A DNA stretch of 64,000 bases, from the NCBI RefSeq assembly GCF_000621805.1, contig NZ_JHXH01000011.1:1-64000 (forward strand), given 5' to 3'. A program made the position numbers and the translations under genes. Shown one piece after another: positions 8,367-32,574 of this stretch (within the stretch, counting starts at the first letter, position 1; every line of letters starts with the position of its first letter). The DNA comes from Ruminococcus sp. FC2018 (lineage in GTDB: Bacteria > Bacillota > Clostridia > Oscillospirales > Ruminococcaceae). Below the pieces are notes generated by a model, which saw only the letters and a program-made list of their open reading frames with translations, did not search any database and had not been told where the DNA came from.

Positions 8367-8975
8367 CTAAAATGAAAATGTATCTTTAATTCCCGACCAC
8401 TTCTGATCCTTATCACTCAGATTGAGCTTTGTCCCATCAGTCAGCGTATACCCTTCAGCACTTGCTGTGCCGTTATATTCACCTTTTACTTCGGGCCATT
8501 CAATAGCTATTTGTGGATCATTCCAAGCCATTCCACCCTCATCGTTGGGATGATAGAAGTCGTCACATTTGTAGCAGAACTCAGCCACATCAGATAGTAC
8601 AAGGAAACCGTGTGCAAAGCCCTTGGGTATAAGGAATTGCTTTTTGTTTTCCTCTGTCAGTTCAACTCCGTACCACTTGCCGTATGTATCACTGCCGCTT
8701 CGTAAGTCTACAGCTACATCAAATACCCTGCCCTTTATGACTCTTACAAGCTTTGTTTGCGGATACTGCTTCTGAAAATGCAGACCTCTGAGAACTCCCT
8801 TCGTTGAACAGCTCTGATTGTCTTGAACAAAGATAATGTCAATACCTGCCTCCTGCATATCTCGCTGGCTGTAGGTTTCCATAAAGTATCCCCTGTTATC
8901 ACCATGAACAGCGGGAGTTATTACGCAGAGTCCTTCAATTCCTCCAACATTCTTTTCTACTTTTATCTGTCCCAT
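8367..8975 (-). CDS. rfbC: dTDP-4-dehydrorhamnose 3,5-epimerase
   Basis: This 202-residue cupin enzyme has the RmlC core: the LRGLHFQ motif with the catalytic His, RVIKGRVFDVAVDLR and the IPKGFAHGFLVLSD segment. It inverts C3 and C5 of dTDP-4-keto-6-deoxyglucose in dTDP-L-rhamnose synthesis. It is the last of four contiguous genes (rmlA, B, D, C in reading order) and its ATG shares a base with the rfbD stop. Length is slightly above the usual 185, with a short extra C-terminal tail. Confidence 0.95.
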   Translation of the reverse strand: MGQIKVEKNVGGIEGLCVITPAVHGDNRGYFMETYSQRDMQEAGIDIIFVQDNQSCSTKGVLRGLHFQKQYPQTKLVRVIKGRVFDVAVDLRSGSDTYGKWYGVELTEENKKQFLIPKGFAHGFLVLSDVAEFCYKCDDFYHPNDEGGMAWNDPQIAIEWPEVKGEYNGTASAEGYTLTDGTKLNLSDKDQKWSGIKDTFSF

Positions 8976-9859
8976 CAGTACTCTATCTCCTTTAGATATC
9001 TTGAAAGTGCATCCTGCCAGGTAGGCAGGGTTTTAAAACCGTTATTTGTTAATTTTGACTTATCAAGTCTGCTGTTAAAAGGCCTTTTGGCTTTACTCAA
9101 TCCATATTCAGCTGTTGTAACAGGAGTTACTTTTGTGGTATAGCCTGCTTGCCTGTAGATCTCGCAAGTGAAATCGTACCAGCTTATATATCCACCTTCG
9201 TTTGTAGCATGATAATAACCGTACTTATCCGTTTCTGCCATATCAACAAGCAGCCTTGCAAGGTCAAATGTATATGTTGGCGTGCCAATCTGGTCGTTTA
9301 CTACACGAACCTCCGGGTGTTTCTTACCCACATTCAGCATAGTTTTGATAAAGTTCTTCCCGTTCTTGCCAAAGACCCAGGCAATACGAACAATGTAGTA
9401 CTTGTCCAGTGTTTGTGAAACTGCAAGTTCACCGTCAAGTTTAGACTGACCGTAAACGCAAAGCGGTGCGTAGTCCTTGCAATCAGGCTGCCAGGGCTCT
9501 GTGCCTTCGCCGTTGAAAACATAGTCGGTAGAAATGTATATCATCTTGCAGTCTGCTGCTTTGCAAGCTTCTGCTATAAACTTTGTGCCATTTGCATTTA
9601 TTGCAAAGACCTTGTCTTTGTTTTCAGCGTCCTCAGCTGCATCTACAGCTGTCCACGCAGCACAGTGGATGACTGCATCAGGCTTTGTTTCGGATATTAC
9701 CTTTTCTACAGCCTGTTTATCTGTAATGTCAAGCTTTATGTAGTTGTCGTCATCTTTATCAATGATATCGCTGCCAATTGCCTGATGTCCACGATTTTTA
9801 AGCTCGTTTATCACATCAAAGCCAAGCTGACCTCCAACACCTGTTACTAATACTTTCAT
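8975..9859 (-). CDS. rfbD: dTDP-4-dehydrorhamnose reductase
   Basis: This 294-residue short-chain dehydrogenase begins with VTGVGGQLG (NADPH binding) and carries the STDYVF motif and YGQSKLDGE with the catalytic Tyr and Lys near residues 130-134. It performs the last step to dTDP-L-rhamnose. Gene order and 2-bp spacing to rfbB show a single transcriptional unit. Nothing unusual in length or motifs. Confidence 0.95.
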   Translation of the reverse strand: MKVLVTGVGGQLGFDVINELKNRGHQAIGSDIIDKDDDNYIKLDITDKQAVEKVISETKPDAVIHCAAWTAVDAAEDAENKDKVFAINANGTKFIAEACKAADCKMIYISTDYVFNGEGTEPWQPDCKDYAPLCVYGQSKLDGELAVSQTLDKYYIVRIAWVFGKNGKNFIKTMLNVGKKHPEVRVVNDQIGTPTYTFDLARLLVDMAETDKYGYYHATNEGGYISWYDFTCEIYRQAGYTTKVTPVTTAEYGLSKAKRPFNSRLDKSKLTNNGFKTLPTWQDALSRYLKEIEY

Positions 9860-9861
9860 AT

Positions 9862-10884
9862 CTATTTTCTGTCTCCATACATCTTCTCATAGTAATTCCG
9901 GTACTCGCCGCTGATGATAGTTTCCCACCAATCACGGTTGTCAAGGTACCATTTGATTGTTTTCTTTATGCCGTCTTCAAACTTTGTTTCAGGCAGCCAG
10001 CCAAGTTCGTTATGTATCTTGGTCGGGTCGATAGCATATCGCATATCGTGTCCTTTTCTGTCCGTAACGTGGGTGATAAGGCTCTCGGGCTTGCCAAGCT
10101 CCTTACAGATCAGCTTGACGATGTCGATATTGCGCATCTCGTTATGGCCGCCAATATTATAGACCTCGCCTACTCTGCCCTTATGGATAACAAGGTCTAT
10201 CGCTTTGCAATGATCCTCAACGTACAGCCAATCCCTTACATTAAGTCCCTCGCCGTATACCGGAAGAGGTTTATCGTTAAGACAGTTTGCTATCATCAGT
10301 GGTATCAGTTTCTCGGGGAAATGATACGGACCGTAGTTGTTTGAACAGCGGCTGATCGTTACAGGCAGACCGTATGTCCTGTGATACGCAAGCACCAGAA
10401 GGTCTGCACCTGCTTTTGAACTGCTGTAAGGAGAACTTGTATGTATCGGAGTTTCCTCTGTAAAGAACAGATCCGGTCTGTCAATGGGCAGATCGCCGTA
10501 CACCTCATCTGTCGATACCTGGTGATAACGCTGTATGCCATACTTTCGACAAGCGTCCATAAGCGTTTGCGTTCCGATGATATTAGTCTGCAAAAAGATA
10601 CCCGGATCTTCGATCGACCTGTCAACATGGCTCTCCGCAGCGAAGTTCACCACGATATCTGGGTGCTCCTCCTCAAACAGCTTGTTGACCGCTTCCATGT
10701 CGCATATATCAGCCTTTACAAACCTGAAATTCGGATTATCCATTACAGGCGCAAGTGTACTCAGGTTCCCTGCGTATGTAAGCTTGTCCAGGCATATGAT
10801 CCTGTAATCAGGATATTTTTTCAGCATATGAAATACAAAATTGCTTCCGATAAATCCGGCTCCGCCGGTAACTATTATTGTCAT
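9862..10884 (-). CDS. rfbB: dTDP-glucose 4,6-dehydratase
   Basis: This 340-residue extended short-chain dehydrogenase has TGGAGFIGSNF at the N terminus, the STDEVYGDL segment with the catalytic Asp/Glu pair, and YSSSKAGAD with Tyr and Lys around residue 160. It converts dTDP-glucose into dTDP-4-keto-6-deoxyglucose. It follows rfbA by one base and precedes rfbD by two. Confidence 0.96.
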   Translation of the reverse strand: MTIIVTGGAGFIGSNFVFHMLKKYPDYRIICLDKLTYAGNLSTLAPVMDNPNFRFVKADICDMEAVNKLFEEEHPDIVVNFAAESHVDRSIEDPGIFLQTNIIGTQTLMDACRKYGIQRYHQVSTDEVYGDLPIDRPDLFFTEETPIHTSSPYSSSKAGADLLVLAYHRTYGLPVTISRCSNNYGPYHFPEKLIPLMIANCLNDKPLPVYGEGLNVRDWLYVEDHCKAIDLVIHKGRVGEVYNIGGHNEMRNIDIVKLICKELGKPESLITHVTDRKGHDMRYAIDPTKIHNELGWLPETKFEDGIKKTIKWYLDNRDWWETIISGEYRNYYEKMYGDRK

Positions 10885-10885
10885 A

Positions 10886-11773
10886 TCAATACCTCACCTT
10901 TCCCTCTGCAACAGCTTTAAGATGCGCACCGTACGGAGACTTGCCGTATCTCTGTGCAGACTCCATAAGCTTATCCTTATCGATCCACTTGTTTATGTAA
11001 GCAATCTCTTCGGGTGCAGAGATCGTGATGCCCTGTCTCTTGGATATCATCTGAACAAAGTCTGCAGCTTCAACAAGACTGTCCATCGTGCCGGTATCAA
11101 GCCATGCAAAACCACGACCAAGCAGCTGAACATCAAGCAGTTCATCGCCAAGGTACATATCATTGAGCGTCGTTATCTCAAGCTCACCTCGATCAGACGG
11201 CTTAACAGCGTTTGCTCTTGCAGATACTCCCTTGGGATAAAAATACAATCCCGTAACAGCATAATTAGACTTCGGCTGTGCAGGCTTTTCTTCAATGCTC
11301 AGAGCCTTGCCGTTCTCATCGAACTCAACAACACCGAAACGCTCGGGGTCGTTTACATAGTAGCCGAAGACAGTAGCACGATCATTCTCTTCCGCATTTT
11401 TCTTTGCAGCACGAAGTATCGTTCCAAAGCCGTTACCATAAAATATATTATCTCCAAGAACCATTGCACAAGCATCATCGCCGATGAATTCTTCACCAAG
11501 GATGAATGCCTGAGCAAGTCCGTCAGGAGACGGCTGGACCTTGTACTGCAAGCTGATACCAAACTGAGAACCGTCACCGAGAAGGTTCTCAAATCGTGGA
11601 GTATCCTCGCGTGTAGATATTATGAGAATGTCTTTGATCCCGGCAAGCATAAGCGTGCTCAAAGGGTAATATATCATTGGTTTGTCGTATACCGGCAACA
11701 ACTGCTTGCTTGTTACCATTGTCAACGGATAAAGCCGTGTGCCGGCACCGCCGGCGAGAATTATGCCTTTCAT
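10886..11773 (-). CDS. rfbA: glucose-1-phosphate thymidylyltransferase
   Basis: This 295-residue nucleotidyltransferase has the signature [11 protein letters not shown] followed by [18 protein letters not shown], and LGDNIFYG with the metal-binding Asp. It makes dTDP-glucose for rhamnose synthesis. The ATG at 11773 (MKGIILAGG) has GGGG 6 bp upstream; an in-frame ATG at 11821 would overlap the kinase gene before it. First gene of rmlABDC in reading order. Confidence 0.96.
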
Positions 11774-11786
11774 AAATTTCCCCATT

Positions 11787-12812
11787 TCATCTTTGAACTC
11801 GTCCGTTTCCGCCACTCTCAAGCAATTTATTTACATCTTCTATAGTTGTTCTGTTGTAATCGCCCTCAATAGTTTGCTTCAAACAACTAGCTGCAGTGGC
11901 AAACTCTATAGTTTCTTGGCAATTAAACCCTGATACTAATGCATATATGAGACCAGCTGCAAAACTGTCTCCTCCTCCAACCCTGTCAACTATCTGTATG
12001 TCATATTCTTTTGAAAAATAACTTTGTGATGTATTTGAATCATATAGCATAGCTCTCCATCCGTTCAAGCTAGCCGAATAACTCTTCCTTAATGTGGTAG
12101 CTACATATTTACAACCGTAAATGGAATGAATCATTTTTGCATTATTAATATAATCTGTTTCGCTCAAACATCCACAATCGACATTTGATTGATATGATTC
12201 TATTCCTAACGCTTTTTCAGAATCTTCTTCATTACATATGCACACATCAACATATTTCATTAATGGTTTCATATACCTTTGAGCTTTTTCAGGCGTCCAC
12301 AGCTTTGACCTATAATTCAGATCGCATGAAACAATCAAACCTTTTTCCTTTGCCTTTTTGCATGCATCTAAACAAACATCTGCGAGATTGTCTGACAATG
12401 CAGGATTAATGCCAGTCCAGTGAAACCAATTCGAAGATTCAAAGATTCCATCCCAATCGAACTCCTCTTTACTTGCTAATGAAATCGCAGAACCGACGCG
12501 ATCATATATTACCCTTGATGGACGTTGTGCTGCACCTTTTTCCAAATAGTACAACCCCATCCGTCCTTCTCCATAACTAATCTCTGAAGTGTCTACTTTG
12601 AAATAGTCAAGAGAATGTGCGGCCGCATGTCCTATGTCAGAATTTGGAAGTTTAGTAACAAACATCGAGTCAATTCCAAAGATAGATAGTGAAACAGCAA
12701 CATTAGCCTCTCCTCCACAAAATGTCGCTTCCAAACTATCCTTCTGAAAGAGCTTTGTATATCCTGGTGCTGCCAAACGAAGAAGGAGCTCACCAAATGT
12801 TACAACTTTCAT
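11787..12812 (-). CDS. PfkB-family sugar kinase (2-keto-3-deoxygluconate kinase-like)
   Basis: This 341-residue ribokinase-fold enzyme starts with [11 protein letters not shown] and has the glycine-rich substrate motif [12 protein letters not shown] near residue 32. Near residue 280 it has the PfkB signature [17 protein letters not shown], with the catalytic Asp. The N terminus most resembles KDG kinases. It follows an HMGL-type aldolase fusion and a KdsB-like cytidylyltransferase, so it may phosphorylate a precursor or salvaged form of a 2-keto-3-deoxy sugar acid, rather than serve central metabolism. Substrate assignment is inference from context; the kinase fold is firm. Confidence 0.85.
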
Positions 12813-12823
12813 ATTATCGTCTC

Positions 12824-14401
12824 CTATATCACAACGTATTTTGGCGTAGTAATTAATTCTATATCAATCTCTTTGCCCAACTCTTTCAATACAGACACTA
12901 TGCCGTTATTCTTTTTTTCAGCAAGTTCTTTTTCTGTATAATAATTCATTCTCTGATCCGCATAGTTTTCTTCTTGATTAACTGAATATCCATCCATACC
13001 AGCAATCAGGATTTTCTTCACTCCTAGTGTTAATAGCAGTTTTGCGAGCATGAGCCCAGCATTATCTTTTACTGCCTCAACAGTATTCAACAAATCCTTA
13101 TATCTAACCTGCAAAAAAACATCTACAGTTGGTATATTAGATGTAACAATACTCTTAAACCTCTTCCCAGCTGGAAGATCACGAAAACGTCTCAAATTAC
13201 TAACGAACAAATAATCCGTTATGTTTTCGTCATAATCATAATTTATGCTTATCACCACAACGTCGTCTTGATATGCATAACTAATAATCTTTTCTTTCTC
13301 AAATATTGAACTTTTTCCTGGCGCAATCATTAATACTCGTTTTCCTGCTAAGCGTTCCCTTAGTTCAGACAAATGCTCAACTTGAATGTGTTCTTTTGCT
13401 TGATATTTTAAATATAAATCTTCTATATATGACTTATCAAACGATGTTTTCTTTTCAACATCCATCATACCAAATATATCATTCATCTCTTCAAAAGTAA
13501 GTGTTTTTTTCGAATCAAGATACGCTGCATAATTTGGATGTGCATTGTATGATGCGGAAATATAATTGGGAAGAGAATATCCCCAATAATGCCTTTCATA
13601 GAATGGAGTTAGTATCTTATCAACAATAGACAACAAAGGATTAATAAAGTAGTCCTTTTCGGCATTTTCATTAAGATAACCTACAAATAATTCTGTATTT
13701 AGATTACCTGCACCGCGTCCCATACCCATTATTGAAGAATCAATTATGAGTCTACGATTGGTTTGTACCATAGTCAAGCTTTGAGCATTAGAAAATGCAA
13801 GTTGCATATTATTGTGGCAATGAAATCCAATACATATTTTATCATTCAAGTTATGTTCAACCATATAGAATAATCTTATCAAATCCTTTTTCTTCATCAT
13901 TCCAAAACTATCTACAATATAAAATGCATAGGGGTCAAATTCATTTACACAACGAATAAGCGATAAAAACTCTTCATCAGAGTAGCTAAGCGAGACCATG
14001 GCCTGAACAAAAACAAGATAACCTTTTTCTTTAATCCGTTTGCACACTTCTAATGCATCACGTAAATCTTTTTTGTGAAATGCTACTCGAATACCGTCAA
14101 CAGACGAACTATCATAATTTGGCAGATTATCAATATCATATTCACCATAATTCATCATTACAACGAATTTTTTACTTTCACGATTTTTAGGAATAATACT
14201 GGCTACCTCATTAAGACCATTGAATTTTGTTGAGTTTTGATCGTAAACCTCTTTACCAGAAATAAATCCACATTCGATAATCTCAACATTTGCTGTTACC
14301 AATCCGCTTACAATTTGTTTGGCATTCTCGAATCCAAAGTTCCAGTCATTACAATATCCTCCATCACGTAACGTACAATCTAAAACCTGTATTTTATTCA
14401 T
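12824..14401 (-). CDS. HMGL-type aldolase fused to an extra C-terminal domain
   Basis: This 525-residue protein has an N-terminal DRE-TIM/HMGL-like barrel (residues 1-300). It shows DCTLRDGGYCNDWNF (Arg/Asp catalytic and metal residues), GFHCHNNMQLAF (metal His pair) and MGMGRGAGNLNTE, most like pyruvate aldolases of the 4-hydroxy-2-oxovalerate type. Residues 350-525 form a separate Rossmann-like domain starting KRVLMIAPGKSS, with repeated beta-strand/helix units and a second Gly-rich segment (KKILIAGMDGY). Its shape recalls DUF115 or GT42 sialyltransferase-like folds, but this is a weak resemblance. The ATG at 14401 overlaps the kdsB-like stop (TGATG); the codon at 14404 is TTG. A pyruvate aldolase next to a CMP-ulosonate synthetase suggests synthesis of a 2-keto-3-deoxy sugar acid from pyruvate and an aldehyde. 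Confidence 0.8.
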   Translation of the reverse strand: MNKIQVLDCTLRDGGYCNDWNFGFENAKQIVSGLVTANVEIIECGFISGKEVYDQNSTKFNGLNEVASIIPKNRESKKFVVMMNYGEYDIDNLPNYDSSSVDGIRVAFHKKDLRDALEVCKRIKEKGYLVFVQAMVSLSYSDEEFLSLIRCVNEFDPYAFYIVDSFGMMKKKDLIRLFYMVEHNLNDKICIGFHCHNNMQLAFSNAQSLTMVQTNRRLIIDSSIMGMGRGAGNLNTELFVGYLNENAEKDYFINPLLSIVDKILTPFYERHYWGYSLPNYISASYNAHPNYAAYLDSKKTLTFEEMNDIFGMMDVEKKTSFDKSYIEDLYLKYQAKEHIQVEHLSELRERLAGKRVLMIAPGKSSIFEKEKIISYAYQDDVVVISINYDYDENITDYLFVSNLRRFRDLPAGKRFKSIVTSNIPTVDVFLQVRYKDLLNTVEAVKDNAGLMLAKLLLTLGVKKILIAGMDGYSVNQEENYADQRMNYYTEKELAEKKNNGIVSVLKELGKEIDIELITTPKYVVI

Positions 14402-15186
14402 CAAGCATCACTTTTGGCGGTATTATTCACCGCTATTTCTCCTTTTTGAAGTTTTGAGGCAACAATTGTCCTGACTCTTTCCAAATCATTCGGTGTGTCT
14501 ACGGCAACTGTCTCCGAATCCACCTCAACATACTGAACTTTATAGCCATTCTCAATGAACCGAAGGATTTCTATATCTTCAATAGCTTCTAATTTAGCCT
14601 TGCCATATTTAATACCATAATCGCAGTAGAAATTTAATGCTTCTGGTTTGAATCCATATACACAAACCTGCTTATAATATGAATAGTCAATACTACCTTT
14701 CGGATAAGGGGCAGTGGTACGAGTAAGGAAAACGCCTATCCCATCCTTATTTGTAAGAACCTTAGGAACTGTACAATTGACCAAATCCACAGGATCTTTA
14801 ATCTTGGTCATCAGGTTAGAAACCTGAAGATGAGAATTATTATAAAATGGTTCAATAGCCGCTTTAATTGTAGATGATTCAAGAAGCGGTTCATCGCCTT
14901 GAATATTTACTATTAAATCTGCAGGAATTCTTCTAGCTACTTCACCTATACGGTCAGTTCCTGTTTTGTGCGATTCCGAAGTCATTATTACTTCTATATT
15001 CAATGACATACACACATCAAAGATTTCCTGACTATCAGTTGCCACATATACTTCATGAAAATCATCTACTTTTTTACACTGTTGATATACCCACCATATC
15101 ATTGGTTTGCCACAAATATCAGCCAAAGGTTTACCCGGAAAGCGGGATGATTTATACCGTGCAGGGATAACGCCTATTATTTTCAT
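14401..15186 (-). CDS. KdsB-like CMP-ulosonate cytidylyltransferase
   Basis: This 261-residue protein has the 3-deoxy-manno-octulosonate cytidylyltransferase hallmarks. These are IPARYKSSRFPGKPLADICGKPMI at the start (residues 7-30), VNIQGDEPLL near residue 93, and VDTPNDLERVR near the C terminus. It would activate a 2-keto-3-deoxy sugar acid as its CMP derivative. No KDO-8-P synthase, arabinose-5-P isomerase or KDO-8-P phosphatase is visible nearby; an HMGL-type aldolase and a PfkB kinase follow instead, so the substrate may not be KDO itself. GGAG lies 6 bp before the ATG. KDO-type genes are unusual in Gram-positive bacteria. Confidence 0.85.
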   Translation of the reverse strand: MKIIGVIPARYKSSRFPGKPLADICGKPMIWWVYQQCKKVDDFHEVYVATDSQEIFDVCMSLNIEVIMTSESHKTGTDRIGEVARRIPADLIVNIQGDEPLLESSTIKAAIEPFYNNSHLQVSNLMTKIKDPVDLVNCTVPKVLTNKDGIGVFLTRTTAPYPKGSIDYSYYKQVCVYGFKPEALNFYCDYGIKYGKAKLEAIEDIEILRFIENGYKVQYVEVDSETVAVDTPNDLERVRTIVASKLQKGEIAVNNTAKSDA

Positions 15187-15274: not shown

Positions 15275-16390
15275 TTATAATATATTACTCATAAAATTCT
15301 GCTTATTCTCAATCGCCGTCGTCGTAGGTCTACCGAGGTCGTCCCTTGCACCTATCGAGCACTTGACCTCGATAAGCGAAAGCTCGTTTGCAGCCTTTGC
15401 CTTCTCAAGCTCCGCATCAAGCGCCTCGAAGCCATCTACGCTTACAGCGTTCGGATAACCGCAAGCCTTTGCCACACCAACCACGTCGATCTGACCTGCA
15501 ACAGTTGGCATACCGCCAACCGTTTCGTGCGCAGCGTTGTTGATAACGATATGTACAAAGTTACTCGGTTTGTTTGCACCAAGAACAGCCATGCTTCCCA
15601 TATGCATAAGCACAGCACCATCACCATCGATGCACCATATCTTTTTGTCAGGCTTGTTTATCGCAACACCCAGCGCAATCGACGAACTGTGTCCCATCGA
15701 TCCTACAGTCAGGAAATCATACTTGTGGCTCTGCCCGTTTGCCTCTCTGATTTCAAAAAGCTCTCTGCTCGCCTTGCCGGTTGTGGATACTATCGGGTCT
15801 TCTCCACTCACCTTTACGATGTGCCTGATTATCTCCTCACGCACCATTGTGTTGTCATTTTTGTACTCAACCTTTGGTGCATCAGTCAGCGCACCCTTGC
15901 GGATTATAAAGGCGACCTGCTTGCCATTTGCAAGTATGGCTTTGAAATTCTCCATAGCCACCTTAACTTCATCATCTGTCGTTTCCTTGCCAATGATGAA
16001 AGTAGCTATGTCCATATCCTCGAGCAGTTTTACAGTTACCTCACCCTGATAGATGTGCTGTGGCTCGTCGTGTATACCAGGCTCGCCTCTCCAACCTACA
16101 ATGAATATCATAGGAATAGCGTACACCTTGTCATTGAGCAGACTGGCAACAGGGTTTATGATGTTGCCCTCACCAGAGTTCTGCATATACACAACAGGTA
16201 CTTTTCCAGTCGCAAGATGGTATCCCGCAGCAAGTGCAGTGCAATTACCCTCGTTTGCAGCTATGATGTGGTGTTTCTGGTCAATGCCATACGTCGCCAT
16301 AAGATAGTTGCACAGCGCTTTGAGCTGGCTGTCCGGCACACCCGTGTAAAAATCCGCACCAATTATTTCAACAAGATTTTCTACTTTCAT
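15275..16390 (-). CDS. aepY: phosphonopyruvate decarboxylase
   Basis: This 371-residue thiamin-diphosphate enzyme decarboxylates phosphonopyruvate to phosphonoacetaldehyde, the irreversible step that drives C-P bond formation. Near the N terminus it has FYTGVPDSQLK and AANEGNCTALAAGYHLATG, with the Glu that activates ThDP. In the C-terminal half it has GSMGHSSSIALG and the ThDP motif from GDGAVLMHMG to VINN. The ATG at 16390 is chosen because GGAGAGG is 6 bp upstream; an ATG at 16411 has no such site. It belongs with the PEP mutase fusion (18679-20697) and the reductase (17567-18679), and a RES-domain gene lies between. Confidence 0.93.
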   Translation of the reverse strand: MKVENLVEIIGADFYTGVPDSQLKALCNYLMATYGIDQKHHIIAANEGNCTALAAGYHLATGKVPVVYMQNSGEGNIINPVASLLNDKVYAIPMIFIVGWRGEPGIHDEPQHIYQGEVTVKLLEDMDIATFIIGKETTDDEVKVAMENFKAILANGKQVAFIIRKGALTDAPKVEYKNDNTMVREEIIRHIVKVSGEDPIVSTTGKASRELFEIREANGQSHKYDFLTVGSMGHSSSIALGVAINKPDKKIWCIDGDGAVLMHMGSMAVLGANKPSNFVHIVINNAAHETVGGMPTVAGQIDVVGVAKACGYPNAVSVDGFEALDAELEKAKAANELSLIEVKCSIGARDDLGRPTTTAIENKQNFMSNIL

Positions 16391-16413
16391 AATATCCTCT
16401 CCAGTAGTCATTA

Positions 16414-17565
16414 TTATTCGCTCATGCCTAACAATTCGTAAAAATTCATATCCGATTCTTCCATGCATTCGTTTTTAAACAGTGCTTGTTCAATCAAACC
16501 ACATAGGCTGCTATGATAAGAAAAAGGTGAACCATCACGGGTATATAATATCCTTTTATCAGCATTTGCAAGGGATTCTTCGCAAGCAGTATTCCACTTA
16601 AGAGATGATTCATCACGACGAATTGTTTCTGCAATCATATATAGTTCTTTACCTGATCTATTATTTGTCGTGGTAAAGCAATTTGATAAGAACTTACATT
16701 TTGTATCTCTAGTGCTATCAGAACGAGCAGGGAACACATAATTCACATATGTAGTCCAATCTTCTGCTAATTGCTTAGCATTTATGCTTGAAACTTTAAT
16801 TGAAACATACTTTATTCCCATTAAGCTTCCTGCATTCTTTTTCCTCAAAATGTACTCCAAATATAACTGAGGGAAAATATATTCAGGTTTAAAACAATCA
16901 TTTTCATGCCTAACTTTAATTGAACACAATGCCATTAATGGCCAATACAAAAGATACTCATCTTCATCGAACCATTCTTCATTACTCAGTTCATTGATCT
17001 TCTCAGGAATATGGCTCAGGTCAACAACTTTCATTTCCAAGGCTTTTTCTGTGGGCTTCAAAGCAACTAATTGCATTGAATCAATTGTTGGTCGATTCAT
17101 TTCAACCCAAGATGTATATACTGATGCTCCAGCATATAAGCACGGCAGACCCGGTGAACTATATCTTTGCGTAGAGATAATAGTCCGCCTATTTAGTGGA
17201 ATGTGAAACATCTGATCATCAGTGTAATCATCAAGCTCATTATTTATTCTTCCTCTAAACATGCATTTTTCATCTAACGAACTATACAAAAGCGGCGATT
17301 CATCAATATCTAAAGCATTCAAAGCTCTTTCAAAATTATTATGTGCATTATAGTGATTCCCACGGAAATAGTTTGAAAGTACAAACATGCAAGATCTTTT
17401 GAATCTTGTTATTCGTTCTACTACTGATTTATTAGCACCATACATTTTTAATGCGATTACATAAGAATTTAAAAGCCTATTGACCTCATGTTTAAAATCA
17501 TCTGAATTAAATACAATTGGAAAATCTAGTATTCCTATGTCTTTTAAGTTTTCAATAATGCTCAT
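16414..17565 (-). CDS. RES-domain protein (NAD-phosphorylase-like fold) in the phosphonate module
   Basis: This 383-residue protein carries a pattern typical of RES domains: an early MFRGR (Arg104), then MFHIPLNRR, QRYSSPGLPCLYAGAS and TSWVEMNRP with a conserved Glu near 155. A Ser-containing segment near the C terminus is less certain. Characterised RES proteins are toxins that degrade NAD+ together with an Xre/MbcA-type antitoxin. No antitoxin gene is adjacent here, and there is a roughly 100-residue N-terminal extension. It starts one base after the reductase stop with no visible ribosome site, so it depends on coupling. It is more A+T-rich than aepY. It could be a domesticated enzyme of the glycan pathway or a defence or toxin gene carried in the operon. 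Confidence 0.65.
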   Translation of the reverse strand: MSIIENLKDIGILDFPIVFNSDDFKHEVNRLLNSYVIALKMYGANKSVVERITRFKRSCMFVLSNYFRGNHYNAHNNFERALNALDIDESPLLYSSLDEKCMFRGRINNELDDYTDDQMFHIPLNRRTIISTQRYSSPGLPCLYAGASVYTSWVEMNRPTIDSMQLVALKPTEKALEMKVVDLSHIPEKINELSNEEWFDEDEYLLYWPLMALCSIKVRHENDCFKPEYIFPQLYLEYILRKKNAGSLMGIKYVSIKVSSINAKQLAEDWTTYVNYVFPARSDSTRDTKCKFLSNCFTTTNNRSGKELYMIAETIRRDESSLKWNTACEESLANADKRILYTRDGSPFSYHSSLCGLIEQALFKNECMEESDMNFYELLGMSE

Positions 17566-17566
17566 A

Positions 17567-18679
17567 TCAAGTTATAATTGTCAAATATAGTTTTTCTATT
17601 ACATCATCACTTAATTTCACAGGGTTGTTCTTCAGTCTGTCGGGGTTTACCGACGTTTTCAGCACGTCTATGTCATTGGCGTCCTTGGCCTTTGGCGATT
17701 CTAGCTCAAGGCTGTCAACTATATGTGCAAGCTTTTCATCAGCCTTTTCAGCTGTCGGACAACCCATAGCAGCAGCTATTTCATTGAACGACTCTTTGAG
17801 ATACTGCTCTCCACGCTTATCTATGCACTTATCCGTGTTTGCAATCATATAAGGGAAAAGCACCTTATCACAAAGGGCAGCAGCATGACCGTGGGCTATT
17901 CCATAAAGGCTCGTCAGCTTATAGCACATAGCATGACCTGCTGTGGTTTGCGTGATGTTGATCGCCTTGCCTGCAATATTTGCAGCTTTAAGCATTTTTG
18001 CGTTTGCATTTTCGTCATTTGATAGATAATCGTCCATATTAGCAAGAATAAGCTGTATAGCTTCCTTTGAATACTGTTTGCTCTCATCTGTACTGTTAAC
18101 AGACCAGAAAGACTCTATTGCATGACAAAACGCATCCATCATAGTTGCTTTTTTCTGATATATCGGAAGTGTTTTCAGAACACTTGCATCAAAAAGCACA
18201 GTGCCTGGAATACAGCTATCGCTTGTTACGCTCTGCTTTTCTCCATTGTAATAAATAACTGCATAACGAGTCGCCTCGCTTCCGGTTCCGGCTGTTGTCG
18301 GAACTGCAAAGAGAACAATATCATTCGGAACTATCTCCTGTTTAAGATAATTCTCGCTGCTGTCCATATTAGAATACAGCTTGATGCATTTTGCAACATC
18401 TATAGCAGAACCGCCGCCAACAACAGCGATCATTTCACACGACTCTTTATGGAACAACTCAACACCCCTGACAACGCTTTCGTAATTGGGATTAGGCTCA
18501 AAGTCGCTGAAACGAACTACTTTAATGCCGGATCTGTTTTCAAGTGATTCAAAGTATTCATTAAGTCTTAGAAACCTTATTGAATTATCACATACAAGTA
18601 AGATCTTCTTTACTTTCTTTTCAGCAAAATACAAATCTAATTCTGCGTAATTCTCACTGGCATATAGTATGCTCTGCAT
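17567..18679 (-). CDS. iron-type alcohol dehydrogenase, probable phosphonoacetaldehyde reductase
   Basis: This 370-residue group III (iron-dependent) alcohol dehydrogenase has VVGGGSAIDVAKC near residue 90, PTTAGTGSEATRYAV near 129, and the metal-binding histidines in DAFCHAIESFWS and GIAHGHAAAL. It lies between aepY and the PEP mutase fusion with a 1-base overlap (TAATG) with the latter, so it most likely reduces phosphonoacetaldehyde to 2-hydroxyethylphosphonate, as PhpC-type enzymes do. No AEP transaminase is present in the window, which argues against 2-aminoethylphosphonate as the end product. The family is certain; the substrate is inferred from context. Confidence 0.87.
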   Translation of the reverse strand: MQSILYASENYAELDLYFAEKKVKKILLVCDNSIRFLRLNEYFESLENRSGIKVVRFSDFEPNPNYESVVRGVELFHKESCEMIAVVGGGSAIDVAKCIKLYSNMDSSENYLKQEIVPNDIVLFAVPTTAGTGSEATRYAVIYYNGEKQSVTSDSCIPGTVLFDASVLKTLPIYQKKATMMDAFCHAIESFWSVNSTDESKQYSKEAIQLILANMDDYLSNDENANAKMLKAANIAGKAINITQTTAGHAMCYKLTSLYGIAHGHAAALCDKVLFPYMIANTDKCIDKRGEQYLKESFNEIAAAMGCPTAEKADEKLAHIVDSLELESPKAKDANDIDVLKTSVNPDRLKNNPVKLSDDVIEKLYLTIIT

Positions 18680-20697
18680 TATACATCCTCCGGAATAAGT
18701 CTGATTATTTCCTTAAACGGCATACAGATATCATCGCATTCCTTGGCACGATGATGTTCAAGAATTATTTTAGCTGCGTTCTGCATTGCCGGGAAGCCGG
18801 TTCTTGTGAGTTGATTTGCATAAATAACAACGTTTACGCCACGCTCTTTGAACTCTTCTTCAGTAACAGTATTAAAAGAAGTTGGTACAACTACGATAGG
18901 TGTTGTTTTGTCTTTATTGCGGAACTTCTCAACAAACTCAAATATCTCTGCTGGATCTTTCTTTCGGCTATGAATCATGATCGCATCAGCGCCTGCATCC
19001 GTGAATGCAAACGCTCTTTCAAGAGCATCATCCATTCCCTGCTCAAGAATCAAGCTTTCTATTCTTGCACAGATCATAAATTCTTTGGTCTTCTGCGCTT
19101 TCTTACCGGCTTTTATCTTTTCACAGAAATCCGGGATAGAGGCTTGAGTCTGCTTTACCTCAGTTCCAAACAAACTATTCTTCTTTAATCCAGTCTTATC
19201 CTCAATAATGACCATTGACACGCCCATTCTTTCGAGTGTACGAACAGTATATACGAAGTGCTCAGTCAACCCGCCGGTATCGCCATCAAAAATGATCGGT
19301 TTTGTGGTAACTTCCATAATATCATCAATAGTACGGAAGCGGCTTGTCATATCTACAAGCTCTATATCAGGTTTACCTTTTGCAGTTGAATCACAAAGTG
19401 AGCTTACCCACATTGCGTCAAACTGTCTTGCACCGCCGTTTTCATTAACCACGGTGTTTTCAACGATAAGCCCAGTAAGACCGCTGTGTGCTTCCATTGC
19501 AGTTATTGTGCCTTTCATGGCAAGAACCTTACGGAGTCTTCCCCTTCTCATATCTGGTGTTGCAAGCTCTGAGCGAGAGCGGTTTTCAAGTTCCTTATAC
19601 TTTTCATCTGCTGAATACGGATATTCCACAAGCTTTCCGCCATATTCAGCGAGAACAGATACTACCTCATCTCGTATAGGCTTTTGGAATCCGCTTACCC
19701 AGTCATCACCGTGTACAACTATATCCGGCTTATACTTTTCAAGATTATCTTTATAGCTGAGCGTCTTTTGCTCAACTACGTTATGCACGCCTACGATGTT
19801 CTCAAACATTGCCTTGCGTTCAGCATAAGGCAGCAGAGGAAAACGTTTATAGCTTACAACTGCCTCGTCTGAGAGAACACCTATTGTGAGCTTGCCAAGT
19901 CTAGCAGCTTTTTTGATAATAGCTATATGACCGCTATGGATCATATCGGTTGAAAAGCACATATATACTTTTCTGTTCTCGATTTCCTTGAGCTTTGCAG
20001 ATACAACAGCAAGGTCTTCAGGATTGTCTATTTCTGCACAGAGTCTGTTTTCTACATCAAGAGGCTTGATCATACATTTATCTGACACTTCGTTGAATGC
20101 ATTTTCAGCATAGACTTTGCGTTTTGCCTCGTCACCGCTTTCACAGAATGCCGAGATATTATCCAGCCATATCTTCCAGTCATCACGCTTGATCTTATAC
20201 AAAGGCTGTGCTTCCATCGCATCATCAAAAATGTCGATGGAAACTTTAACTATATGATCATCCTTTATGACAGCTTTGAAATCTTTCTCAGGCAGTGGCA
20301 ATGTTGAGCTTACCGTCATACAGCTTGTTTCACTTGAAACAACATCATCAAAAACAGTATTCTCAAATACAAGATCACCATGCATGAGTATGATATCATC
20401 ATCAAGGTACTCTTTTGCACAGTAAATTGAGTATATGTAGTTGGTTTTATCATATACGGGGTTGTTCACAAATGTAAAATGCAATGGTAAATCGAGTGAG
20501 TTGCAGTAGTTAACAAGTACATCATCAAAGTATCCTGTAGTCATTACGACCTCGGTAATACCGGCTGATGAGATCAGTTTAAGCTGACGGCTGAGTATTG
20601 TTTCTGTTGCAGATACCTCGGTCATGCATTTCGGATGTTCTGAGGTCAACACACCCATACGGGTGCCAAGACCTGAGTTAAGGATTAGCGATTTCAT
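18679..20697 (-). CDS. three-domain phosphonate enzyme: NTP transferase, cytidylyltransferase and PEP mutase
   Basis: This 672-residue fusion has three parts. Residues 1-235 are a LicC/PntC-like sugar-phosphate type nucleotidyltransferase (LNSGLGTRMG, HPKCM, GDLVFE). Residues 243-370 are a TagD-like cytidylyltransferase (CFSTDMIHSGH with the HxGH motif at 254-257, and YAERKAMFENI). Residues 385-672 are phosphoenolpyruvate mutase, with DGDTGG near 471 and the diagnostic EDKTGLKKNS at 499-508 (EDK-x5-NS), which separates PEP mutases from other isocitrate-lyase relatives. It would form phosphonopyruvate from PEP and activate a phosphonate as a CMP derivative for transfer to the glycan. Two-domain fusions of PEP mutase with a cytidylyltransferase are known; having both kinds of nucleotidyltransferase in one chain is notable. 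All three domains look intact. Confidence 0.9.
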   Translation of the reverse strand: MKSLILNSGLGTRMGVLTSEHPKCMTEVSATETILSRQLKLISSAGITEVVMTTGYFDDVLVNYCNSLDLPLHFTFVNNPVYDKTNYIYSIYCAKEYLDDDIILMHGDLVFENTVFDDVVSSETSCMTVSSTLPLPEKDFKAVIKDDHIVKVSIDIFDDAMEAQPLYKIKRDDWKIWLDNISAFCESGDEAKRKVYAENAFNEVSDKCMIKPLDVENRLCAEIDNPEDLAVVSAKLKEIENRKVYMCFSTDMIHSGHIAIIKKAARLGKLTIGVLSDEAVVSYKRFPLLPYAERKAMFENIVGVHNVVEQKTLSYKDNLEKYKPDIVVHGDDWVSGFQKPIRDEVVSVLAEYGGKLVEYPYSADEKYKELENRSRSELATPDMRRGRLRKVLAMKGTITAMEAHSGLTGLIVENTVVNENGGARQFDAMWVSSLCDSTAKGKPDIELVDMTSRFRTIDDIMEVTTKPIIFDGDTGGLTEHFVYTVRTLERMGVSMVIIEDKTGLKKNSLFGTEVKQTQASIPDFCEKIKAGKKAQKTKEFMICARIESLILEQGMDDALERAFAFTDAGADAIMIHSRKKDPAEIFEFVEKFRNKDKTTPIVVVPTSFNTVTEEEFKERGVNVVIYANQLTRTGFPAMQNAAKIILEHHRAKECDDICMPFKEIIRLIPEDV

Positions 20698-24443: not shown

Positions 24444-25925
24444 CTACAATCTTGCTTTTCGTTTGGTATAATCGTAGTGTAGCTTTATCATAAAATGGAA
24501 AAGTAAAACGTAATACACATAATATCTTAGGAATGAAACTAAATCTGTTCTGATAGCAAAACATAATAACGAACTAATGTATACATATTTATATAAATAG
24601 AAATTATTATGCTTATTCTTAATATAAGACATCATAAGCTTTCCGACGCCGAATCCGATGAAAAGCATATATATAATAGAAAAATAGCCAAAGTTATGGT
24701 ACGATTCAGCAATAAAAGATGAACCCATTCCGATTTTTATTTCTTGTGTATATTGAGGAGAATACAATAAACTTGTACTGAGAGAATTAATATCAATTAC
24801 ATTTCGCAAAAACGATGGCAAAACCATGACAACTGCACCAATTATAGAAAAACCATATGAATATGGAACTATGTCAGGTGTTTTATACAATACAACATCC
24901 ACTACCTCAAATGTCGAACCAGTTTCAATTAAAACATTCGTCAAAAGGCCTTCATCGCTAATCTTGTCCCATGTTTTCGAGGCCATTTCACTAACGCTAC
25001 CAGAATTAGCAATAGCTTCTCTTGAATCTCTGACAATTGAAAAAACTGCCAGTATCGCCACTCCAATTATTATTAGTTTTATTAAATCTCGTCCTTTAAT
25101 CTGCTTTATCTTATCATTATATATCAAAACGATAGCTATTACAGACTCAAAGACTCTAAATCTCGAACCTGTCATTAGATATAAAACAACATAAACCAAA
25201 TAGATAAGAATTATCAGTGTCTTTTTCTTGCTATTAGAGTAGCTGATCAACAATAGATATATGCTTGGCAAAAAGAAGTAAGATAAAAAGTAGCAGATTT
25301 TCAACAGTGTAGAACCTGTTGTCATTCCCAAAGCTTCCGAATAACCATATTTGAATGTATTTACAACATCATTATAATACTTATACAATGTGGGAACTAC
25401 AACAATAGCTAATACAATCCAGGCAACTCTTTTAATTGATTCGCTGTAATAGTTATTCTGAGAAAAATTAAGTTCTTTTGAATCAATTTGTTTTGATTTT
25501 GAGTCGCATCCAAATAAAACACCAATATTAATTACTAGCATACATATCAAAACAAAGAAACTAGCTCCGATCCTACTTGTATCTGGAATCCTACCATCAA
25601 GAATAGATCTGTAGTATGTTTTAAGAACCCTCGCCTTTCCAAATAGAACAACAAGATGTTGCCCGAAGTAGAACAAAAAACTCATAAGGAGCATACAGCT
25701 GTATACATTAATCAATCCATTCTTTAATACTGAACAACAGTAGAACAGAAATACATAAACACCAATTGCAATCATTACACAAATTGATAAAGCAAACTCA
25801 AGATTTCCATTGTAAAGTCGTTCAAACACAATCCGCAAAACAACAAGAGCCATAATTAGTATTAATGATACAACTATACATAAAAACCTATTTTTATCGA
25901 TGCGAAATCTATTTGCCACTTTCAT
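24444..25925 (-). CDS. wzy: Wzy-type oligosaccharide repeat-unit polymerase (cluster 1)
   Basis: This 493-residue membrane protein has about 12 hydrophobic segments and a large extracytoplasmic loop near residues 290-390. It is A+T-rich and poorly conserved, as polymerases of this kind are. Its start overlaps the WbsX stop by 4 bp. The call rests on topology, length and its place between an O-acetyltransferase and glycosyltransferase genes, plus the separate identification of a flippase in the same cluster. Confidence 0.75.
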   Translation of the reverse strand: MKVANRFRIDKNRFLCIVVSLILIMALVVLRIVFERLYNGNLEFALSICVMIAIGVYVFLFYCCSVLKNGLINVYSCMLLMSFLFYFGQHLVVLFGKARVLKTYYRSILDGRIPDTSRIGASFFVLICMLVINIGVLFGCDSKSKQIDSKELNFSQNNYYSESIKRVAWIVLAIVVVPTLYKYYNDVVNTFKYGYSEALGMTTGSTLLKICYFLSYFFLPSIYLLLISYSNSKKKTLIILIYLVYVVLYLMTGSRFRVFESVIAIVLIYNDKIKQIKGRDLIKLIIIGVAILAVFSIVRDSREAIANSGSVSEMASKTWDKISDEGLLTNVLIETGSTFEVVDVVLYKTPDIVPYSYGFSIIGAVVMVLPSFLRNVIDINSLSTSLLYSPQYTQEIKIGMGSSFIAESYHNFGYFSIIYMLFIGFGVGKLMMSYIKNKHNNFYLYKYVYISSLLCFAIRTDLVSFLRYYVYYVLLFHFMIKLHYDYTKRKARL

Positions 25926-27007
25926 TTTGATACCACTCGTTTTATAGCTTCTAAATAACTATATGAATCTGTTGTAGTCGGTTCAAGCATACATCCTTCT
26001 CCCCACTCGTTCCAAGCATTGATATATATAAATGATTCATCTTCCGACATATCATATATGTGTTTTAATGAATTGTAAAACTTTTTCACCGTCGCTCCCT
26101 TGTAATATGAGCCCTTATATCCTCTTCTTGGTGTATTATCCCATTTAGGAAATGTACCTAAATATGTTTTCCTTTTATAAACACCTCCATTATTTATCGC
26201 TTTGTAAACACTGTCAATATTCTCGATTCTCTCCAGTCGCTTGTTATTTAATGCCTTATTACACAATACATTTTTCAATATAGATATTTTTCGTTTTACA
26301 GATTGAAATTGTGTGCTATTGTATTTCAGACTAAATCCAGGCTCAAAATTATAAAATGCATCTATGTTATCTATTCTCGTTTCTACACCCATAATCGTAT
26401 TCCCAGAAACAACATAAATCCCTGGAAACCCATGTTTAATCGCTAATTTTTTCCAGCAAAGAAGCATTTCATCCAAATGATGAATATATTTTGTTTTATA
26501 TATATTGATTACTGGCTTTCCATCAATCTTAATATACCGTTCATCTTCAAAGAACTTTGACATATAATTAAAATGATCAGTCCAGTCTTGTTCATCCCCA
26601 TAGGTCTGCTCTATCAATACCGTCGACTCAAGATTGTACCAAGTCTTGGTCCACGTTTCATTTGCCCATACAATACAATACTTTATATCGATTTCCTTGT
26701 GTTTCAAGAGAATCTCCATCGGTTTTTCTAAAAGCATTTTGCTATTACCAAACCAATAATGATATATAGCAAAACCATAAACACCATATTTTTTAGCCAG
26801 TTCACTCTGCCATTTCCACGTCGCTGCATCTTCTTCAGATAAATCATAATAATTGTGATTTAATGGTATAACAGGTTGTTTATGTCCCTTAAATAACGGC
26901 TTGGCTTTACGTACAGCTGTCCACTCTGTATATCCTTCACCCCACCACTTGTCATTTTCAGGGATAGAGTGAAACTGAGGCAAGTATAGACATAAAATCT
27001 TTTTCAT
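25922..27007 (-). CDS. WbsX-like glycan-modifying protein (GH99-related)
   Basis: This 361-residue protein shows the PF14307 pattern: LYLPQFHSIPENDKWWGEGYTEWTAVRKAKPLFKGHKQP at the N terminus, YGVYGFAIYHYWF near 95, YCIVWANETWTKTW near 133, and INAWNEWGEGCMLEP near the C terminus. WbsX proteins occur in many O-antigen and capsule loci. They are named glycosyltransferases but resemble GH99/endo-mannosidase-type folds, so the reaction is unsettled. The ATG at 27007 has GGAG 6 bp upstream; the alternative at 27019 is TTG. Confidence 0.85.
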   Translation of the reverse strand: MKKILCLYLPQFHSIPENDKWWGEGYTEWTAVRKAKPLFKGHKQPVIPLNHNYYDLSEEDAATWKWQSELAKKYGVYGFAIYHYWFGNSKMLLEKPMEILLKHKEIDIKYCIVWANETWTKTWYNLESTVLIEQTYGDEQDWTDHFNYMSKFFEDERYIKIDGKPVINIYKTKYIHHLDEMLLCWKKLAIKHGFPGIYVVSGNTIMGVETRIDNIDAFYNFEPGFSLKYNSTQFQSVKRKISILKNVLCNKALNNKRLERIENIDSVYKAINNGGVYKRKTYLGTFPKWDNTPRRGYKGSYYKGATVKKFYNSLKHIYDMSEDESFIYINAWNEWGEGCMLEPTTTDSYSYLEAIKRVVSK

Positions 27008-27341
27008 AGTAATCTCCAAAGCGGGCGGTACCGCACAAATTGAAATAAAAAAACGAATGCCGCAATATTTTATTCGTTTTAGAGTGAATTATCTTGCGAG
27101 TCAAACAACCTCATTACAACACTAGCATATAAACGTATTATAATAATCAAAAAAACTGGCCATAATTACACGTTGAAGATAGATTCTACATTTTCCGTTT
27201 TGTTATATCAAAAGAAGTCTTAAGATAAGAATCAAATCGTCTACTTATTTGGCTATTTTCATTTTGCTATTTCAAGGCCATAATTAATGTGCTTTTTCGA
27301 CATCATATTTTCTACTATTAACTCCAAGCCTAACATATGGT
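27008..27341. other. 334-bp gap inside cluster 1, A+T-rich, no gene seen
   Basis: This gap holds a terminator-like hairpin (27044-27080) and an 11-bp direct repeat, GGCCATAATTA, at 27158-27168 and 27276-27286. A TATAAT lies on the minus strand near 27138, but with no good -35 box. No open frame was supported. It splits cluster 1 into an upstream part (32.3-27.3 kb) and a downstream part that might have its own weak promoter here. Confidence 0.5.
27044..27080 (-). terminator. terminator-like hairpin between the two halves of cluster 1
   Basis: AAACGAAT (27051-27058) pairs with ATTCGTTT (27072-27079), and on the minus strand the hairpin is followed by a run of seven T. It lies about 260 bp after the transferase stop at 27342. 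It would reduce or stop transcription into the WbsX-to-nucleotidyltransferase part unless read-through occurs. Confidence 0.6.
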
Positions 27342-28733: not shown

Positions 28734-28862
28734 TATCAATATCACCCTAACATGATTTTGTTTTATTTGTTTATTCAATGATTGAAATCTTAATAGCAAG
28801 TAAGATGAACTCATAATCATAATAGTCTTTTCAAAATGAAAATTTCTGCCAATCATCTCTAT

Positions 28863-30080: not shown

Positions 30081-30094
30081 GAATCATCCCTCGA

Positions 30095-30922
30095 TTACTT
30101 TTCGGTCAACTCCATACTTTCATAGAAGTTGTATTTATTTATTATATCTGTACCGTCGTAGGTTAAATTGCCAAAAACTTTCTTGATGATCGATATCCTG
30201 AAAAGATAAATAAACGGATTAAATATATGGGGCATAAACAGCTTTCTACCCTTAAAACTTGCAACAGTTCTTATCATCTCTGAACTGTTTACATAAGCTG
30301 AATTCTGAGGGAAGTACAGCCCGTGCCTTTCATCATCAATAACATTCTTCACAAACTCACAAAGATTTCCGATATACACCATTGACCTCTGATTAGGATA
30401 ATTAGGGAAGATAGGTGACTTTAACGCAAAGCTTCTGAGCCTCTGATAATTACCCTTACAGTCCTTACCGTAAACCATCGGCGGTCTGAGGATAGCGACC
30501 TTGAATGAATCACAATCAAGTTTAACTATCTTTTCGTCAGCCTGAAGCTTTGATTTGCCGTAATGACTCTTCGGATGCGGAACCGTTTTCTTGGTTATCA
30601 CACCGGTTTCCACCCCATAAACATTCATAGAGCTAAGCAGAATAAACTGCTTAACTCCATCTCGTTTAGCCTTTTTGGCTGTTGCTATTGCAAGATTGCG
30701 GTTCACCTCATAGTAAAGATGCGCATTTTCAAGCGTTTCCTTCTGATGCGCAATTCCTGCGACATGAAAAACACAGTCATAGCCGGAAAAGCTTTTGCTC
30801 TTCCAGCTATCACCGATCATATCAACTGTATCAACAGAGTAGTCATTTCCGAACTGCTCCATATAATTTTCAAACGAGGTGCCTATGTAGCTGTTTGCAC
30901 CCGTGATGAGTATTTTTTTCAT
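30095..30922 (-). CDS. NAD-dependent sugar epimerase/reductase (extended SDR)
   Basis: This 275-residue protein has ITGANSYIGTSFENYM (nucleotide binding), SSMNVYG and YGKSK (catalytic Ser, Tyr, Lys near residues 97 and 125), and LRPPMVYGKDCKGNYQRL. It resembles the short SDRs that reduce or epimerise UDP-4-keto-6-deoxy-HexNAc (WbpV/QuiNAc-type) and often sit next to the initiating PGT. It overlaps the PGT gene by 4 bp. Exact product unresolved. Confidence 0.8.
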   Translation of the reverse strand: MKKILITGANSYIGTSFENYMEQFGNDYSVDTVDMIGDSWKSKSFSGYDCVFHVAGIAHQKETLENAHLYYEVNRNLAIATAKKAKRDGVKQFILLSSMNVYGVETGVITKKTVPHPKSHYGKSKLQADEKIVKLDCDSFKVAILRPPMVYGKDCKGNYQRLRSFALKSPIFPNYPNQRSMVYIGNLCEFVKNVIDDERHGLYFPQNSAYVNSSEMIRTVASFKGRKLFMPHIFNPFIYLFRISIIKKVFGNLTYDGTDIINKYNFYESMELTEK

Positions 30923-31806: not shown

Positions 31807-31829
31807 AACAAAGATCCTCGTGCTTTAAG

Positions 31830-32327: not shown

Positions 32328-32459
32328 AACCGACCTGCTTTCAATTTTTTTGCTACCTTCCCTGACTTGTCCATCATACCTTACTTTTCGCAAAACATAG
32401 CATTTTGTTAAAAGCTTTAAAATTTATATATAGTTTTATTGCATAATTTCACACATTCT

Positions 32460-32488: not shown

Positions 32489-32574
32489 CGAAAACATTTG
32501 AAATTTGGCAAAATGGCAATTATTTGCAATGCTTAACGACAAAAACTGAATATTTCAACGAAGGAAAGTTGATT

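Follow-up and report, generated by a model that had tools for sequence, protein, structure and literature searches.

The well-known routes to ulosonic acids activated with cytidine monophosphate (CMP) begin with a synthase that depends on phosphoenolpyruvate (PEP). Such are the KdsA-KdsC-KdsB pathway to 3-deoxy-D-manno-octulosonate (KDO) of Gram-negative lipopolysaccharide, and the NeuB-NeuA and PseI-PseF pathways. Here we compare with them a locus in a stretch of 64,000 nucleotides from Ruminococcus sp. FC2018 (contig NZ_JHXH01000011.1, positions 1 to 64,000; the window), where three genes are transcribed on the minus strand in the order KdsB-like, aldolase, PfkB. They encode a KdsB-type CMP-ulosonate synthetase (14401..15186, 261 amino acids), a long HMGL-type aldolase, which we call AldL (12824..14404, with the likely start ATG at 14401, 525 amino acids), and a PfkB protein similar to 2-keto-3-deoxygluconate (KDG) kinases (11787..12812). 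It is likely, judging from sequence comparison, that the product of AldL is activated with CMP by the KdsB-type enzyme, and comparison with the known CMP-ulosonate pathways supports placing this putative route among them as a new variant.

In common with the KDO pathway, the system has a KdsB-type synthetase, an inferred product class and, in 12 of 32 loci with a KdsB-type synthetase, a KdsC-like phosphatase directly after AldL. It differs in that the window genome has no KdsA, a barrel resembling that of DmpG being found instead, that the sugar site of KdsB is altered, and that PfkB stands for KdsC. With the NeuB-NeuA and PseI-PseF systems it shares the predicted CMP activation; a NeuA/PseF-type partner is seen in 16 of 48 loci with a CMP-ulosonate-type synthetase (CMP-type loci), and sialyltransferase-like genes lie near many of them, whereas the window genome has no NeuB, and a predicted pyruvate aldolase replaces the PEP-dependent condensation.

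In the pathway that we propose, the three genes would make and activate an acidic sugar for the surrounding cell-surface polysaccharide. AldL would condense pyruvate and an aldehyde to a 4-hydroxy-2-oxo acid (a 2-keto-3-deoxy sugar acid), replacing the PEP-dependent KdsA or NeuB. A partner would then set the phosphorylation state, this partner being a KdsC-like or other HAD phosphatase in many sister cassettes and the KDG-kinase-like PfkB here. The KdsB-like enzyme would join the sugar acid to CMP, and a sialyltransferase-type enzyme would finally move the sugar onto the glycan; none could be named in the window.

The coordinates of the open reading frames (ORFs) bear out the claim of the first-pass annotation of this DNA that the trio is adjacent and tightly coupled: the KdsB stop codon and the likely AldL start share one base (TGATG, 14403-14399, minus strand), and the AldL and PfkB genes are 11 bp apart. 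The search for a promoter or terminator bounding the cassette yielded counts close to those of shuffled sequence. The G+C content is 33-37% over the 12-15 kb stretch, compared with 43-47% in the neighbouring rml genes.

The same annotation had noted the absence of KdsA and NeuB, and this holds for the genome (99.6% complete), where only a 3-deoxy-D-arabino-heptulosonate 7-phosphate (DAHP) synthase matched either profile. The profile search found no KdsA in it, the sole DAHP_synth_1 match being this DAHP synthase (485.9 bits against 335, but 113 against 314 with the KdsA model), and no NeuB, the only match to the NeuB profile being the same gene (31.4 bits). Supply by a KdsA or NeuB encoded elsewhere in the window genome was therefore ruled out. 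Among 44 genomes with a CMP-type cassette none had a KdsA above the TIGR01362 cut-off, compared with four of 14 control genomes; this set omits the genomes of loci L007, L008, L009, L178 and L185, and two of its members (G1109 and G460) are probably one genome.

The window KdsB-like protein matches PF02348 (160.7 bits) and PRK13368 (278.8 against a cut-off of 255). It also narrowly passes one kdsB cut-off (TIGR00466, 159.3 against 155.2), as would be expected if it acted in the ordinary way on KDO or a nonulosonate that is scavenged or made elsewhere, the aldolase being unrelated. The other cut-off is missed (PRK05450.1-1, 173.2 against 281), KdsA and NeuB are lacking in the genome, and the sugar site, described below, has changed, so that we consider this explanation most improbable. 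The CTP and metal residues R10, R15, D100, R157, R213 and D235 (Escherichia coli numbers) are present in all 32 cassette KdsB proteins. To compare the sugar sites, we used a signature of E. coli KdsB positions 98, 181, 183, 185, 187, 210, 211 and 214, which we take to surround the KDO pocket, the KDO contacts presumably including His181 and Gln211. The signature is QHGYYEQV in E. coli KdsB and QQCYFEIF in the window protein, which has Gln at His181 and Ile at Gln211; Gln211 is kept in none and His181 in 12 of the 32 cassette proteins.

These 32 proteins comprise the classes QQCYFEIF (nine, including the window), NHGLYNEF (ten) and MIGQFDLF (eight), and five singletons. Where a downstream partner is found it follows the class, being PfkB in four of nine QQCYFEIF loci, a HAD protein in five of ten NHGLYNEF loci and a KdsC-like protein in all eight MIGQFDLF loci, with no crossing between them. 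The KDO-binding part of KdsB is the C-terminal domain (PMC3149649). The class-wise alteration of the sugar site suggests a changed sugar for the main KdsB classes, and the sugar activated by the window protein is probably not KDO. The window signature recurs unchanged on a plasmid of Leisingera sp. NJS204 (Alphaproteobacteria; NZ_CP035420.1), where KdsB is encoded between its own AldL (27% identity, with 74% of the query aligned) and a HAD hydrolase (a weak match, 28 bits). Hence the third gene accompanying QQCYFEIF is not always PfkB.

AldL matches PF00682 (HMGL-like) at residues 4-244 with 77.2 bits. Its residues 1-344 (13373..14404, minus strand) form a DmpG-like triosephosphate isomerase (TIM) barrel, in which R13, D14, H195 and H197 align with the DmpG site; among the 69 loci of our survey, R13 and D14 are kept in 68 (the remaining one has a gap), and H195 and H197 in all 69. 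In DmpG we take the Arg/Asp pair and the His-x-His motif to be the pyruvate and metal site, and His21 to be catalytic. The closest solved relative of the barrel is 3dxi (E = 3.4e-32), followed by DmpG-type aldolases. We infer from this that AldL is a putative metal-dependent pyruvate aldolase. The entry 3dxi is the protein BVU_2661 of Bacteroides vulgatus, described by a structure only and carrying no named function; its title speaks of an 'N-terminal domain', which suggests that this protein also continues into a C-terminal part. AldL thus resembles the class II pyruvate aldolases DmpG and BphI (1nvm, 4lrs, 8ih7) in its fold and in the Arg/Asp and His-x-His site, and departs from them in an extra, putatively MptE-like domain and in the lack of an acetaldehyde dehydrogenase in the trio, as well as in a tyrosine and in family scores that are considered below.

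Isopropylmalate synthases and homocitrate synthases also match the barrel, more weakly, and AldL might accordingly use another donor or a Claisen-type reaction as these enzymes do, its product then not being a 2-keto-3-deoxy acid. The closest solved relatives are, however, the putative aldolase 3dxi and the DmpG-type aldolases, and the two main kinds of partner, CMP-ulosonate synthetases and acetolactate-synthase-like thiamine diphosphate (ThDP) enzymes, would both be expected to consume 2-oxo acids. We regard a Claisen-type reaction as quite unlikely and retain the aldol condensation with pyruvate.

The full-length model of AldL was of modest quality (pLDDT 73.6). The last approximately 180 amino acids had no Pfam match, and the extra domain (residues 345-526; 12827..13372, minus strand) modelled alone gave pLDDT 86.1 and pTM 0.85. 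The nearest solved fold found for this model by Foldseek was the MptE-type HPPK 8sd5 (E = 4.5e-4, TM 0.47), the sole match under 0.001; human ST8SiaIII had rank 27 with a non-significant E of 0.078. Alignment of the C-terminus by hhalign with the neighbouring MptE-like proteins (PF01973) had a probability of 55% and E = 1.2e-4. We read the domain as a putative MptE-like Rossmann domain, not as a proven transferase.

To see how AldL is accompanied elsewhere, we collected aldolase matches, some of which cover the barrel only. They came from the family of the window (54 of 297 genomes, E of 1e-50 or better), 32 of 391 genomes of the class of the L003 genome, nine of 398 genomes of the phylum (at 1e-40; six of them short forms) and two of 395 genomes of the phylum of the L009 genome; the family, L003-class and L009-phylum tallies count the centre genome itself. 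The survey used 31 of 57 match places in the family (including the window and L045), 29 of 34 in the L003 class (including L003) and ten others, the unused places being weaker, without a locus or from genomes already taken. Because locus L132 duplicates L006 it was not counted, and 69 distinct loci remained. Their genes are mechanical ORFs, labelled mostly with profiles built from the loci themselves, Pfam and NCBIfam having been applied to representatives only.

A CMP-ulosonate-type synthetase is encoded directly upstream of AldL in 48 of the 69 loci, 32 KdsB-type and 16 NeuA/PseF-type, with a median gap of 2 bp and at most 30 bp in 43 of 48. As a control we used short aldolase paralogues, namely the window copy (stretch 25001-42000, with the trio outside it) and 16 more loci; none of these 17 stretches of 13-17 kb had a KdsB or NeuA gene. 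The window copy lies at 32854-33828 on the plus strand, apart from the trio, and short forms occur in many genomes of the genus. On the tree of the aldolases, a quick one with SH-aLRT support only, the KdsB- and NeuA-type partners were swapped 12 times, even between the close aldolases L004 and L005. Together with the fusions to IspD described below, these swaps mean that different CTP enzymes keep filling one place. Within three genes upstream, 35 of the 48 CMP-type loci have a gene of a GT52-like, polysialyltransferase-like or MptE-like cluster, and the loci that were inspected gene by gene are polysaccharide clusters. The pair was found not only on the Leisingera plasmid but also on contigs of metagenome-assembled genomes (MAGs) titled Tannerellaceae, Prevotellaceae and Bacteroidetes, and the restriction of the route to a Gram-positive in the first-pass annotation was thus too narrow.

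Two other kinds of partner were observed. A ThDP enzyme, about 600 amino acids long where complete, is encoded no more than three genes away from AldL in 15 of the 69 loci, of which one is CMP-type; the single such enzyme scanned resembles acetolactate synthases (342 bits, short of that cut-off). Such ThDP enzymes neighbour AldL in L043, L146, L155, L161, L167, L172-L176 and L186, in some cases along with RfbF or RfbH: RfbH is present in L175 (712.9 against 423) and RfbF in L176 (374.7 against 300.25). In these features the loci resemble branched-sugar clusters of the YerE/ErwE type, and by analogy they may be clusters that produce long-branched sugars of the erwiniose kind. They form a branch separate from the window trio, which has neither an adjacent ThDP enzyme nor CDP-dideoxysugar genes. 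The YerE-like ThDP enzyme ErwE is reported in a review to use hydroxylated 2-keto acids, for example 4-hydroxy-2-oxobutanoate, -pentanoate and -hexanoate, as donors and not pyruvate (PMC12247030); these are 4-hydroxy-2-oxo acids, as a DmpG-like aldolase would make, which supports the product class proposed for AldL. On a plasmid of Desulfobaculum bizertense, RfbH stands in a row with a pair of transketolase genes and a relative of AldL (L189:6846-11014), which makes another possible branched-sugar cluster.

The third kind is an IspD/ribitol-phosphate-type cytidylyltransferase (220 bits against 166) fused to the aldolase (L181:7971-9710), which is followed by a D-2-hydroxyacid dehydrogenase gene and whose product is perhaps a CDP-linked 3-deoxyaldonate. 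Judged by their N-terminal letters, L182:7275-9014 and L183:1519-3249 resemble it. All three kinds of partner fit one product class, 4-hydroxy-2-oxo acids. A small CTP_transf_like-type protein encoded directly upstream of AldL (L164:6297-6737), TagD-like by its letters, may represent yet another type of CTP partner.

The third gene of the window trio encodes a PfkB protein that matches 2afb ('2-keto-3-deoxygluconate kinase'), its best solved relative, over the whole length (E = 4.6e-106). It falls below the curated KDG-kinase cut-offs (222.3 against 440, 118.4 against 400 and 43.2 against 400) and below that of the fusion model NF041633 (506.6 against 700). Tyr103, Arg105 and Arg168 are kept in all eight cassette PfkB proteins; Tyr103 and Arg105 of the Thermus thermophilus enzyme are presumably KDG-binding residues. 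It therefore resembles the KDG kinases of Thermotoga maritima (2afb) and T. thermophilus (1v19) in its full-length match and in these two residues, and is distinguished from them by its place in a biosynthetic locus and by a genome without PF01081, the family of 2-keto-3-deoxy-6-phosphogluconate (KDPG) aldolase, for which eight of 14 control genomes were positive. The window genome has no second close PfkB copy (the next scores 34 bits). Taken together, a KDG-kinase-like PfkB, no close copy and no PF01081 make a biosynthetic use near KDG likely.

These kinase features would also suit a catabolic module, in which PfkB phosphorylates uronate-derived KDG and AldL cleaves the product in an Entner-Doudoroff-like manner, taking the place of the missing KDPG aldolase, while the KdsB-like enzyme is an unrelated neighbour. 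Against this, the coupled gene of AldL is a CMP synthetase in 48 of 69 loci but PfkB in only eight, the loci viewed gene by gene are polysaccharide clusters, and the phosphatases behind it in 25 loci would make no sense in catabolism, for which reasons we find such a module unlikely. As the sole reading, KDG catabolism was rejected, since no KDPG aldolase was found and phosphatases stand behind AldL in sister loci.

In the biosynthetic pathway proposed above, the third gene is variable. Within three genes after AldL, 25 of the 48 CMP-type loci have a HAD or KdsC-like phosphatase, eight have PfkB, none has both and 15 have neither. The KdsC-like protein of L165 reaches 147.8 bits with TIGR01670 (against 106.95), the other 11 being its relatives by profile; the genes of L151-L153 lie under antisense ORFs. 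No KdsC was found within 6 kb downstream of the window AldL, the region to which this search was confined. PfkB is restricted to a single clade (SH-aLRT 85), which comprises 14 aldolases, that of the window among them, and in which KdsB- and NeuA-type partners are mixed. The aldolase plus kinase of the first-pass annotation is therefore one variant, limited to one clade and rarer than the phosphatase variant. The trio as a unit was ruled out; the unit is the pair of AldL and synthetase with a changeable third gene. Near the end of an IMG/VR contig, a NeuA-type, AldL and PfkB trio (by letters; L206:892-4218) stands beside repressor-like genes and is either host flank or phage-borne cargo.

As for the sugar, we tentatively place KDG or an epimer first, because PfkB keeps the KDG-kinase residues; other products may well turn out to be made. 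PfkB may phosphorylate the aldolase product, its aldehyde precursor or surplus sugar acid, and this is the weakest step of the scheme. With medium confidence we extend the proposal to a modular family independent of KdsA and NeuB, in which the aldolase would be combined with exchanged CTP enzymes (KdsB, NeuA/PseF or fused IspD) and with phosphate-handling enzymes of three kinds (PfkB, HAD or KdsC-like). The KdsB classes would correspond to at least three sugars, that of the window being a short one, for example CMP-KDG, which to our knowledge is not a described nucleotide sugar. So far the family would cover Bacillota, Bacteroidota-titled MAGs and an alphaproteobacterial plasmid.

Several observations weigh against the proposed pathway. 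The nearest named family of AldL is 4-hydroxy-2-oxovalerate aldolase, and its curated cut-offs are not reached (98.8 against 229 and 91 against 286); the position of DmpG His21 is Tyr17 in the window AldL, and Tyr in 61 of 69 loci. KdsB-type enzymes presumably activate a pyranose, which KDG could not adopt once phosphorylated on O6, so that PfkB fits the scheme poorly, and the 15 CMP-type loci with neither enzyme have no nearby kinase or phosphatase (L009 and L139 are cut by a contig end). No CMP synthetase is directly upstream of AldL in 21 of 69 loci, which comprise 14 ThDP-type loci, three IspD-type fusions and four with neither. Selection of the loci was by score, and close kinship is frequent among them: at 70% identity they collapse into 44 clusters, of which 28 include a CMP synthetase. 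Two singleton KdsB proteins, L171 (QHGYYEPA) and L165 (QHGYFEMY), remain near the E. coli sugar site, and KDO may be their substrate. Strong NeuB matches (above 200 bits) are present elsewhere in 11 of the 44 cassette genomes, the others having no match or weak ones that do not exceed 48 bits and in most cases coincide with DAHP-type genes. Two cassette genomes outside the 44, that of L007, titled Tannerellaceae, and that of L009, titled Prevotellaceae, encode a true KdsA, as expected of Gram-negatives. Independence of both KdsA and NeuB is thus true of the window genome and of most tested genomes, not of all, and the survey for the pair in their absence, as suggested earlier, agrees fully only in respect of KdsA in the 44 genomes. 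The idea of a new route itself is sustained by the recurrence of the pair, by this lack of KdsA and by the altered sugar site of the window KdsB, without its Gram-positive limit and without the kinase as a rule.

No description of the aldolase-KdsB pair was found in titles and the beginnings of abstracts, a search that did not cover subscription papers and preprints. If the proposal is true, the aldolase route would be a second chemical solution to CMP-activated ulosonic acids; it would account for the presence of KdsB-like genes where KdsA is absent, and would predict undescribed acidic surface sugars. The annotation 'KDO cytidylyltransferase' in such genomes need not imply KDO.

The trio is flanked downstream by the presumed dTDP-rhamnose genes rmlA, rmlB, rmlD and rmlC (ORFs at 8367..11821, minus strand), and upstream by a phosphonate gene set, likewise on the minus strand. 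The latter consists of a phosphonopyruvate decarboxylase (15275..16468; TIGR03297, 463 bits against 312.5), a weak RES-domain-like protein (16414..17565; PF08808, 21.3 bits, below the cut-off of 23.2), an iron-containing alcohol dehydrogenase (17567..18679; PF00465), which from its neighbours is probably a phosphonoacetaldehyde reductase, and a triple fusion of NTP_transf_3, CTP_transf_like and PEP mutase (18679..20697; TIGR02320, 406.6 bits against 319.55). RES domains are known from toxins, and the RES-like ORF, which overlaps that of the decarboxylase, is odd in such an operon. Triple fusions of this kind make up 42 of 1485 PEP mutases (PMC6697681). The set 15275-20697 probably supplies the polysaccharide that the trio would serve with a CMP-activated hydroxyethylphosphonate.

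A PEP mutase and the decarboxylase (Ppd) occur within seven genes of AldL in three of 69 loci (the window, L131 and L138), and AldL might there build phosphonopyruvate or phosphonoacetaldehyde into a phosphonate-bearing sugar acid for activation by KdsB. In the stretches examined around the 66 other loci a PEP mutase is lacking, however, and the window PEP mutase has CTP-transferase domains of its own, which are common in phosphonate tailoring (PMC6697681); this makes a phosphonate substrate of AldL very unlikely. In the glycan locus a 504-amino-acid ORF (27342-28856) had no Pfam match, and none of the surveyed stretches contained a relative of it at E = 1e-3; it is possibly a glycosyltransferase. 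Farther upstream of the trio, genes of the polysaccharide flippase type and of the CDP-glycerol-glycerophosphotransferase type are found.

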